Of a stretch of 44,651 nt of DNA, positions 40,509 to 42,474 are shown one piece after another (position 1 is the first letter of the stretch; each line of letters begins with the position of its first letter). Both the position numbers and the translations under genes were made by a program. The notes below the pieces were generated by a model, which saw only the letters and a program-made list of their open reading frames with translations, was not told the DNA's origin and searched no databases. Source of the stretch: Lactobacillus acetotolerans DSM 20749 = JCM 3825 (lineage in GTDB: Bacteria; Bacillota; Bacilli; Lactobacillales; Lactobacillaceae); contig NZ_AYZC01000009.1 in assembly GCF_001436775.1 (NCBI RefSeq), positions 1 to 44,651 on the forward strand, written 5' to 3'.

Positions 40509-41420
40509 TTATAAAAATTTAATTGCGTTCTTATTTTTAAAGCCTAGCCTATGTGCCTCATTATCATCATTATCGATCAGACTCTGCAGGGCATAATAAA
40601 TATTATTAAAATTATATTTAGGATTAATTTTATTCAAGAAATATTTAACCAGCGTTATTACTAACGCTACCCTATTGGTGTAATTGCCATTAACCTTAAA
40701 CAAAACATTTTTATATTTATGTGGCATTGATGAACGTGTCCTAATCGAAATATCAATCAGATTAGAATTATGACAACACACGATTCTAATCATATTCAGG
40801 CACTTTAGGCATGAATATAATTCACGCGGAGTCAGGTCAAATACGTTAGAAATTTTTTCTTTATTCTTTTTAGACATAATAGAAAATAAAAAAATAGATT
40901 CACCAAAAGTAAGACAATCTACCATCGTCCAAACAGACGGAAAACCATCTTCATTTTGATTATTGGGAGCCTTAATATCTGGCAAATTTGATCGTTTCAT
41001 TTCTTTTAAAAGATTATTCTTAAAATAAAACTGCTTTTCTTCAATCTCAAATTTGGGAATACTACGATCACACCACTCTTTAAATTCTAGGTATCCAAAT
41101 GCACCGTATTTATCACCTAATAACGTTGCAATTAAGTTGTTCAGATAAACTTCAACATTTTCAATAGCATGAAGAAGATATATTCTTAAATTTTTATCTT
41201 GATAATATCTTTTTAGTAAATTGGCAAAAGTTAAGTTTTTATATCTAAGCCTTTTGCCTTTTTTAACAGAAAACGGAATTGCAAATTCCTTTAATTTATA
41301 ATATCCAATTTCTTGAATTTTTTCTGCGTCTTGTTTATGAGTATTTTTTGGAAAAATAATTCCTCTTTTTTCCATCAATTGTCTTTGCTTTTTTGGAGAC
41401 AATGAACGAGGTCTATTCAA
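40509..41420 (-). CDS. Abi_2/AbiD-AbiF family HEPN protein (abortive infection)
   Basis: The 303-residue protein carries the Abi_2 pattern: EKIQEIGYYKLKEFAIPF (near 34-51), LRIYLLHAIENVEVYLNN (near 78-95) and a C-terminal HEPN-type motif RIVCCHN with Arg212 and His217 (Rx4H), the predicted RNase centre. A second Rx4H-like set occurs at Arg79/His84. The TTG at 41420 is chosen because AGAAGGA lies about 9 bases upstream; a TTG at 41456 would lie within the upstream RNA terminator. AbiD/AbiF-like proteins stop phage growth by killing or arresting the infected cell. A small RNA with its own promoter lies directly upstream. Confidence 0.88.
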   Translation of the reverse strand: MNRPRSLSPKKQRQLMEKRGIIFPKNTHKQDAEKIQEIGYYKLKEFAIPFSVKKGKRLRYKNLTFANLLKRYYQDKNLRIYLLHAIENVEVYLNNLIATLLGDKYGAFGYLEFKEWCDRSIPKFEIEEKQFYFKNNLLKEMKRSNLPDIKAPNNQNEDGFPSVWTMVDCLTFGESIFLFSIMSKKNKEKISNVFDLTPRELYSCLKCLNMIRIVCCHNSNLIDISIRTRSSMPHKYKNVLFKVNGNYTNRVALVITLVKYFLNKINPKYNFNNIYYALQSLIDNDDNEAHRLGFKNKNAIKFL

Positions 41421-41454
41421 TATTTTATTCCTTCTATTTTTTAAATTTGATAAC

Positions 41455-41515
41455 AAAAAACCTCCGTCATCAGGACTTACCTGCGCAAAATGCGAAACGG
41501 AGGGATTGGCTTTGT
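41455..41515 (-). ncRNA. Small structured RNA upstream of the Abi gene
   Basis: On the minus strand the predicted transcript starts near 41515 and ends in T6 at 41455. CCTCCGT (41503-41497) pairs with ACGGAGG (41467-41461) as a 7-bp outer stem. Inside it lie two small hairpins, CGCA-TTT-TGCG and CAGG-TAAGT-CCTG, giving a compact three-way junction that also serves as an intrinsic terminator. The Abi start codon comes 35 bases later. I recall a conserved abiF RNA motif described near abiF genes; this may be a member, or a type III-like antitoxin RNA. Confidence 0.7.
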
Positions 41516-41521
41516 ACCTTT

Positions 41522-41550
41522 ATACTACAAACTATCGGCTACATTGTCAA
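41522..41550 (-). promoter_or_regulatory. Promoter of the small RNA and Abi gene
   Basis: On the minus strand TTGACA (41550-41545) and TAGTAT (41527-41522) are spaced by exactly 17 bases. The start point falls just ahead of the structured RNA, and readthrough of its terminator would give the Abi mRNA. Confidence 0.7.
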
Positions 41551-41707
41551 TTACAAATTAATTTCTTTTTTTAGATAAAAAAATAGCTAGGTTGTATTTG
41601 TTATACTCTAAAATATTCTTTTTATCCCTTATGATTATAATTTATGATTCATCAAGGTAAAAATAATAAGCCAAGTTACTGATATAGCTTGACTTATAGT
41701 AGAAAAG

Positions 41708-41733
41708 AAACATTATCAAAATAAATAATGTTT
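41708..41733 (-). terminator. Terminator of the glycerophosphodiesterase gene
   Basis: AAACATTAT and ATAATGTTT form a perfect 9-bp stem 15 bases behind the stop, followed by CTTTTCT on the minus strand. A second, weaker hairpin lies at about 41670-41697. Confidence 0.65.
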
Positions 41734-41748
41734 CTTAAGTAAATTTAA

Positions 41749-42474
41749 TTAGTTAACTTGCACTTTAGCTGGGCTTTGAATACTATCACGCAGTTTATTC
41801 ATAACCGGATAGTTATCAGTAAAAATACCTGAAACATGGGCTTTAAAGTACTTCTTAGCCTTCTGCGGATCATTAACAGTCCAAATTCTTTGAGTAATTG
41901 TTCCCTTAGAATTTTGGTAACTGCCTGGGTGAATCCCAGCAAAGTTATTATCCTTAATCAACTTATCAGAATTAGTTACATCCTGGTCAGTCAAATAACA
42001 ATATATTTGATGAGGATCAATCTCCTGACAATTCTTCAAAGTAACATAATCAAATGAAGAAAAGATAATAGGATGAATAAAGTGATATTGCTTAGTTAAG
42101 TCTAATACCTTCTTTTCAATTCCTGGATAATGAACCGTACTAGTTTTGAATTCCAAATTGATATAAAGATTACGATCCTGAAGGATTGCTAATACTTCTT
42201 TCAATTCTGGAACAGGTTCACCATTTGCTAAATGTAGCTTCCTAATTTCACTGAGGGTGAAATCTTTGACCCAACCGGTACCATCCGTCGTACGGTCAAC
42301 TTTTTCATCATGCATAACTATCGGAACCCCATCTTTGGTTAACTGCACATCAAACTCGATACCTTCTGCACCATGAGTTGCTGCGTAACGAAAACCTTCT
42401 AAGGAATTTTCAGCAAATTTCGCTGGGTATCCACGGTGACCAAAAACAATCGTTTTAGTATTTTTATTATCCAT
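41749..42474 (-). CDS. Glycerophosphodiester phosphodiesterase
   Basis: The 241-residue GDPD (TIM-barrel) enzyme has HRGYPAKFAENSLEGF (13-28) with the catalytic His, then EFDVQLTKDGVPIVMHDEKVDRTTDG with metal ligands and the second His. It hydrolyses glycerophosphodiesters to glycerol 3-phosphate and an alcohol. No signal peptide is present, so it is cytosolic (UgpQ-like). It can return glycerol 3-phosphate from lipid or teichoic acid turnover to TagD. Single-gene unit. Confidence 0.92.
   Translation of the reverse strand: MDNKNTKTIVFGHRGYPAKFAENSLEGFRYAATHGAEGIEFDVQLTKDGVPIVMHDEKVDRTTDGTGWVKDFTLSEIRKLHLANGEPVPELKEVLAILQDRNLYINLEFKTSTVHYPGIEKKVLDLTKQYHFIHPIIFSSFDYVTLKNCQEIDPHQIYCYLTDQDVTNSDKLIKDNNFAGIHPGSYQNSKGTITQRIWTVNDPQKAKKYFKAHVSGIFTDNYPVMNKLRDSIQSPAKVQVN

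Follow-up and report, generated by a model that had tools for sequence, protein, structure and literature searches.

The Lactobacillus acetotolerans contig analyzed here, a stretch of 44,651 nucleotides referred to throughout as the window, includes an AbiF-type RNA/protein toxin-antitoxin module, a kind that has been characterized elsewhere, whose RNA belongs to a class that escapes the Rfam abiF model (RF03085). A promoter, an RNA of about 60 nucleotides that folds as a three-way junction and ends in T6, and an Abi_2/HEPN gene follow one another on the minus strand (Table 1). We propose, with a probability of roughly 80%, that this RNA acts as a terminator in cis and as an antitoxin in trans. 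The window system itself belongs to a kind already known, and the valuable point, still open, is that phages also carry the RNA without the toxin.

Organization of the locus

The succession of promoter, 61-base RNA, T6 and Abi gene described in an earlier sequence-only reading was confirmed, with 34 nt separating the T run from the TTG at 41420, the likely start of the Abi gene. The list of open reading frames places the start at the TTG at 41456, which gives 315 amino acids. The position of the -10 box served to locate the 5' end of the RNA near 41515. Taken alone, the promoter is not above chance, as eight promoter-like sites were found in the window and 7.7 are expected from shuffled sequences; it is credited because the relatives have a promoter at the same place, as judged by eye, and not because of the scan. 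A simple scan of the window for terminators found no match, which is probably explained by the branched shape of the element. The 70-nt stretch that includes the RNA folds with -20.7 kcal/mol as compared to -12.8 ± 2.55 kcal/mol for shuffled sequences (z -3.1; one of 200 shuffles equalled it). We regard the element as above chance because it is conserved, that is, because it is matched by the covariance model described below and because similar terminating RNAs precede many of the homologous genes.

Table 1. Features of the RNA/Abi locus in the window
Feature	Position	Strand	Basis
-35 box TTGACA	41545..41550	-	sequence, promoter scan
-10 box TAGTAT; spacer to -35 box 17 nt	41522..41527	-	sequence, promoter scan
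Antitoxin-like RNA, about 61 nt	41455..41515	-	R1 match 41513-41455; fold z -3.1
Leader of the RNA, AAAGCCAATC, 5' of the outer stem		-	sequence
Three-way junction	41461..41503	-	fold; covariation among relatives
Outer stem, CCTCCGTT with GACGGAGG, enclosing both hairpins	41503-41496 with 41468-41461	-	
Hairpin 1, CGCA-TTT-TGCG	41494-41484	-	
Hairpin 2, CAGG-TAAGT-CCTG	41483-41471	-	
T6 tract; intrinsic terminator together with the outer stem	41455..41460	-	sequence
Shine-Dalgarno-like AGAAGGA	41429..41435	-	sequence
Gene of Abi_2/AbiF-like HEPN protein, 303 aa from TTG 41420	40509..41420	-	ORF, Pfam, PADLOC, 8VZ6
HEPN motif R212-I-V-C-C-H217 (usual form RN...H)	40770..40787	-	alignments, sequence

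The window protein was identified as Abi_2 by Pfam (E 4.3e-35) and as AbiD by PADLOC (E 7.4e-38). A phmmer search matched it to 8VZ6, the structure of PbAbiF bound to its ncRNA (E 5.6e-17), and the R and H of the active site line up in this match; the other match had an E of 0.086. When an AlphaFold2 model of the protein (mean pLDDT 88.9) was submitted to Foldseek, 8VZ6 was the sole match below E 0.001, with a TM score of 0.77. The predicted protein is AbiF-like by sequence and by modelled fold, 8VZ6 being its only convincing relative of solved structure. This match, together with the precedent of C. difficile RCd22/AbiF discussed below, supports the candidate pairing of an RNA antitoxin with a HEPN RNase that the sequence-only reading put forward.

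Conservation of the RNA among Abi homologues

Abi homologues occur in 52 of the 397 Lactobacillaceae genomes searched, and the best 30 places, the window included, were taken for study. Further homologues came from nine Levilactobacillus, Companilactobacillus, Veillonella and Streptococcus loci, from three viral loci, and from twelve regions of plasmid and phage records, Fusobacterium, Aerococcus, Enterococcus and Lactococcus among them. A covariance model of the RNA, R1, was built using nine relatives as input, with the window left out. Inspection by eye located a self-terminating RNA directly 5' of the Abi gene in many homologues, and simpler hairpins 5' of the remoter ones (L024-L027, L030-L031). 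No such RNA was seen by eye, and no R1 match below E 0.1 was found, in the Companilactobacillus-group homologues (L009-L011 and L033-L036, representing five distinct loci), whose Abi proteins are 44.6-46% identical to the window protein. The hairpin that precedes the more remote Abi genes of L030 and L031 is a differing, self-terminating one that is nearly identical in both, and it perhaps represents a further RNA class. The DUF3800-I RNA (RF02969) was observed close to two Abi loci, at positions 3440-3558 of L005 and 1683-1793 of L041.

Over the 44.7 kb of the window R1 matches once, at 65.2 bits and with an E of 3.1e-14. The outer stem enclosing two hairpins drawn in the earlier reading is borne out, hairpin 1 being its weakly supported part. 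Matches with E<0.001 precede the Abi gene in 31 of the 53 sources searched, which include the nine used to build the model and some near-duplicates. The phylum-wide background is low, with matches in two of 398 Bacillota genomes, the window's own and one at 32.5 bits. Classical type III systems (ToxIN, TenpIN, CptIN) have tandem RNA repeats upstream; this arrangement was not found here, R1 matching once in the window and once in the genome.

From an alignment of 21 rows made with MAFFT (A1), RNAalifold recovered only the four pairs of hairpin 2 because the 3' stem is misaligned. Nine rows with consistent spacing were therefore selected for a second alignment (A3), not fitted to the structure. 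Covariation of the stems upstream of homologous genes, which the first reading had named as a check on its proposal, was found in A3: pairing held for 91.1% of the cells, both partners varied in 10 of 15 pairs, and the covariation score was 0.367 as compared to 0.194 for shuffles (0 of 500 reached it) and at most 0.185 when slid. The outer stem covaries among the relatives; hairpin 1, with 60% of its cells paired in A3, is missing by eye from short relatives such as L016 and L017. The CAA of the leader varies little or not at all, and the same holds in hairpin 2 for CAG, CTG and the loop's A and G.

RF03085 RNAs are located before abiF genes according to PMC12373285. No match to this family was found at E<=10 in positions 41200-41800 of the window or in the loci of 16 relatives, and at the gathering score Rfam found only tRNAs in the whole window. 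Membership of the window RNA in the Rfam abiF family is rejected on these absent matches, and the suspicion that this version is distinct from the known motif is supported. Among 395 Lactobacillaceae genomes RF03085 matched in one (L044), below the cut-off; this RNA precedes an Abi-like ORF and looks like a terminator by eye. The RNA class of the window system is new unless it is included in the covariance models of Zilberzwige-Tal et al. that PMC12804078 mentions, and the outcome is a covariance model, R1, for a class that Rfam's abiF model misses.

Stand-alone copies of the RNA

Of the 30 R1 matches found in 28 of 395 Lactobacillaceae genomes, 13 directly precede an Abi gene (interrupted by an internal stop in two cases), 16 are orphans with no Abi gene in the fetched flanks, and for the remaining one the contig ends 273 nt away, a stretch without Abi. 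A search with an Abi protein profile found no Abi in 19 orphan or doubtful loci and recovered all six control loci; L080 and L085 were checked for Abi remnants by tblastn alone. The 186 Streptococcaceae genomes yielded ten matches in seven genomes, six of them Abi-linked and four orphan. One of these genomes, G903, has four RNA copies (L126, L132, L133 and L134), two before Abi genes and two that are orphans by tRNA-like sequence. Another 33 viral loci had R1 matches. An Abi gene follows the RNA in 17 of them (two being matched only over a short part) and is missing from the other 16; these loci are no census, as 25 came from pattern scans of viral contigs and eight from blastn in phage records. 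L132 and L092 are probably one contig, and L064 and L090 probably one prophage. The weakest orphans, L083 (33.7 bits), L084 (30.4) and L088/L089 (35), are near the 32.5-bit background match; they were kept, as they resemble the short Abi-linked type (L016, L017) or retain leader, loop and stem.

Whole viral records were also searched, and 19 of the 20 that bear an orphan hold no Abi_2 anywhere (eight of the 20 are viral contigs and possibly fragments), while Abi_2 was found in all three controls. The exception is the prophage Javan149 (MK448683; positions 16670 and 37044; L119 and L049), which has an Abi-linked RNA as well as an orphan near tRNA genes. Orphan copies present the configuration of the Racr and pseudo-ToxI kind, that of an RNA in a phage without the cognate toxin. 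A blastn search that took as query the orphan RNA from phage A0 of S. thermophilus matched 137 of 50,697 phage records, 99 of them over >=80% of the query, as compared to 34 phage records with a homologue of the Abi protein. Counted in the 137 are duplicates between GenBank and RefSeq, phages with an Abi-linked copy and partial matches, and R1 confirmation covers only 23 records; a set of 358 phage records, found with a query that included a lysin terminator, was left out of the counts. In the literature searched, which consisted mainly of open-access journal articles, stand-alone antitoxin RNAs of the AbiF/AbiD type were not reported from phages, which is weak evidence of novelty.

The orphans occur in two main places. 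In the S. thermophilus phages A0 (Moineauvirus), P7571 (Brussowvirus), 9871 (Piorkowskivirus) and TP-J34 the RNA is located 3' of the endolysin gene with an extended -10 sequence, TGTTATAAT, just upstream, and it is also 3' of the endolysin in L070 (as annotated with PHROGs) and in S. aureus phage MetB16. In L121 (PP357935, an S. aureus phage) the orphan, at 1507-1561, is 3' of the amidase gene, and 12 Staphylococcus phage records are among the blastn matches of the A0 RNA. The second place is downstream of a late transcription regulator (phrog_248 or phrog_36), as seen in L064, L069, L072, L094, L095, L119, L120 and L124, with tRNA genes nearby in L069, L072, L094, L119 and L120; an annotated terminase small subunit follows further on in L095, L096 and L119. 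Near-identical flanks that read as the 3' end of a tRNA precede the orphan in five streptococcal loci (L092, L094, L102, L119 and L120). Just 5' of the orphan RNA, L094 (4806-4872) and L119 (1927-1993) have tRNA-like genes that score about 30 bits with the Rfam tRNA model and were missed by ARAGORN; such odd tRNA-like genes of streptococcal prophages are perhaps part of a phage RNA anti-defence cluster. Elsewhere, the L083 orphan is antisense beside a portal gene, and by eye those of L086 and L059 are near an integrase-like ORF and beside sugar-nucleotide genes, respectively, and those of L061 and L084 have surroundings that resemble defence genes.

Alignments A4, A5 and A6 were fitted to the model. 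As the rows of the alignments share ancestry, all p values and shuffle counts given here are indicative. A6 comprises 30 orphan loci, the near-duplicates L080, L085, L089, L090, L091 and L096 as well as L074 being left out; L128, L129, L132 and L134 were found after it was made. Pairing holds for 90.3% of the cells in these 30 rows. Both partners vary in 13 of 14 pairs, and the alignment reaches a covariation score of 0.537 as compared to 0.199 for shuffles. The unpaired CAA is retained in 28 of the 30 orphans and in 23 of 26 Abi-linked rows (taken from A4 after reduction from 41 rows by dropping near-duplicates, L014, and weak or secondary matches). A perfect T6 is rarer in the orphans, with 15 of 30 as compared to 23 of the 26 Abi-linked rows (Fisher p 0.0035), or 12 of 27 when three doubtful orphans are removed (p 0.0011). 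This decay of T6 with retention of CAA and fold is as expected if the fold matters and termination does not, in particular near tRNA genes (L072, L119, L120).

We give about even odds to the proposal that the orphans of S. thermophilus, other lactic acid bacterial and streptococcal phages are decoy antitoxin RNAs that would keep the host's AbiF/AbiD HEPN RNases off, i.e. an RNA anti-Abi. Such a decoy may exist in two settings, as a promoter-driven small RNA after the endolysin gene in dairy phages or near phage tRNA genes 3' of a late regulator. It is possible, though less likely, that the copies are instead relics or ordinary terminators left after loss of the Abi gene and have no anti-defence role. 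Several of them occupy the site, after the lysin gene, where related phages have the Abi gene; the TP-J34 copy is annotated as a terminator; L059 is followed by a ribosome binding site and an ATG with no Abi; L061 and L073 include faint Abi-like matches (tblastn E 0.02-0.04); the outer stem is spoiled in L091 and L117; half of the orphans retain T6; and part of their covariation may be inherited from different Abi-linked ancestors. A set of relics, however, agrees less well with the second site, adjoining late-regulator and tRNA genes, with the compensatory change seen at one such site with the same flanks (CCCCAU/AUGGGG in L094 and CCUCAU/AUGAGG in L092), with the persistence of fold, CAA and loop while T6 decays, or with the fact that at least 84 of the 137 phage records matching the A0 RNA list S. 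thermophilus as host. What likelihood is left by the decoy and relic readings goes to other roles, such as allowing a host to escape addiction to the Abi module that resides in it.

Among defences other than CRISPR and restriction-modification, AbiD is the most widespread in S. thermophilus (74 of 263 strains), with its mechanism listed as unknown. The phage RNA of about 58 nt, a copy of an Abi antitoxin, offers a concrete candidate that is an RNA rather than a protein. If the decoy reading is true, phages may disarm Abi defence by means of stand-alone copies of the antitoxin RNA.

Proposed mechanism and state of the window copy

The anatomy of the RNA, its covarying fold, its linkage to Abi_2 genes and the AbiF fold of the protein come from the present analysis; for the terminated RNA as main product, its binding to the protein and the neutralisation of the latter we rely on characterized relatives, by which the antitoxin reading appears well supported. 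The promoter would yield the RNA of about 61 nt, with the outer stem and T6 stopping most transcription and little readthrough into the Abi gene. Held by its outer stem, the RNA would leave the CAA of the leader unpaired and present the CAG-N-YANGY-N-CUG hairpin, and the same RNA would bind the Abi dimer and keep the HEPN RNase site off. Were the RNA lost or titrated upon phage attack, the RNase would be released and growth would stop. Speaking against this reading are the Companilactobacillus-group homologues that have no such RNA, the lack of an RF03085 match, the weak support for hairpin 1, the minor regulatory role reported for the AbiD1 terminator, and the Ile213 and TTG start of the window copy. 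The RNA has spread past its toxin to phages and prophages in which it stands by itself, the simplest reading being that of a decoy antitoxin.

The condition of the toxin in the window deserves separate consideration. The HEPN centre described from the sequence stands as far as its catalytic residues go, as R212 and H217 are present and invariant in alignments A7 and A8; the residue after the arginine is Ile213 and not the usual Asn, found in all 44 other motif-bearing rows, some of which are duplicates (eight broken or partial rows are without the motif). A polar residue (N, H or D) at this position is part of the definition of AbiF as given in PMC12373285, and the window protein falls outside it, an oddity of this copy and not of its relatives; the codon of Ile213, ATC, is one base away from an Asn codon. 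The RIVCCH motif and the TTG start suggest a weakened or drifting copy, and the toxin may be weak or dead. The stronger form of this idea, a decaying locus with an inactive toxin in which the RNA alone matters, has in its favour that all comparable rows have RN...H, but the reading frame is intact over 303 codons, as are the promoter and the RNA, and we consider it unlikely.

Less probable still is that the RNA is an attenuator only, a terminator in the leader that holds down Abi expression in cis and does not act as an antitoxin in trans. The perfect T6 of most Abi-linked rows gives the RNA the look of a terminator, and lactococcal AbiD1 is known for translational control (PMC2661086). A terminator, however, has no need of the conserved unpaired CAA and hairpin-2 loop, the stand-alone copies retain the fold although half of them lack a perfect T6, and RCd22 is reported to act in trans (PMC12373285). 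That the RNA is a guide directing the HEPN nuclease to target RNAs, as the sequence-only reading had also suggested, is very improbable: Cas13 is considered to descend from AbiF (PMC12165695, PMC12737573), but no evidence for targeting was found, each locus has a single RNA, no spacer-like variable part was seen in the alignments, and AbiF is described as having no RNA-targeting specificity in the review PMC12948488.

Comparison with known systems

The terminator and antitoxin reading of the window RNA has its closest precedent in C. difficile, where, as related in PMC12373285, AbiF is toxic and the RNA RCd22, transcribed from a SigA promoter, is mostly terminated before abiF with occasional readthrough; RCd22 is the main transcript, binds AbiF directly and neutralises it in trans. 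As in the window, an Abi_2 HEPN protein is preceded by a short terminated RNA. RCd22, with a full length of 132 nt, includes two RF03085 motifs and a separate terminator (PMC12373285), whereas the window RNA is one three-way junction of about 61 nt that combines motif and terminator and has no RF03085 match. The second characterized relative is PbAbiF with its RNA, AbiFr (8VZ6; Zilberzwige-Tal et al., as cited in PMC12737573 and PMC12373285), which is 23% identical to the window protein in the structural alignment; the window protein differs in having RIVCCH.

Lactococcal AbiD1 of pIL105 also has a short terminated RNA ahead of an Abi_2-type gene. Earlier work recounted in PMC2661086 saw only a 50-base transcript that stops at a terminator 5' of the gene, and the terminator is reported there to have no major role in regulation. 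The AbiD1 protein is 17% identical to that of the window, and the AbiD1 RNA is rejected as a member of the window RNA's family, since R1 with filters off found nothing at the right place and Rfam found nothing. By eye only, the 50-base RNA (L135) resembles that of L044, and it may be another antitoxin RNA class.

The stand-alone copies can be compared with two cases in which a phage carries a copy or mimic of a defence RNA, namely pseudo-ToxI of phage PhiTE, which uses the defence system's own RNA (PMC3475682), and the RNA anti-CRISPRs or Racr (PMC10651486). Inhibition is experimental for these two and inferred for the Abi-type RNAs. Given the proposed place of AbiF in the ancestry of Cas13, the decoy reading, if true, would imply an arms race based on RNA decoys at the level of that ancestor, and RNA anti-Abi would be the pre-CRISPR counterpart of RNA inhibitors of Cas13, one of which has been reported (PMC12948488).
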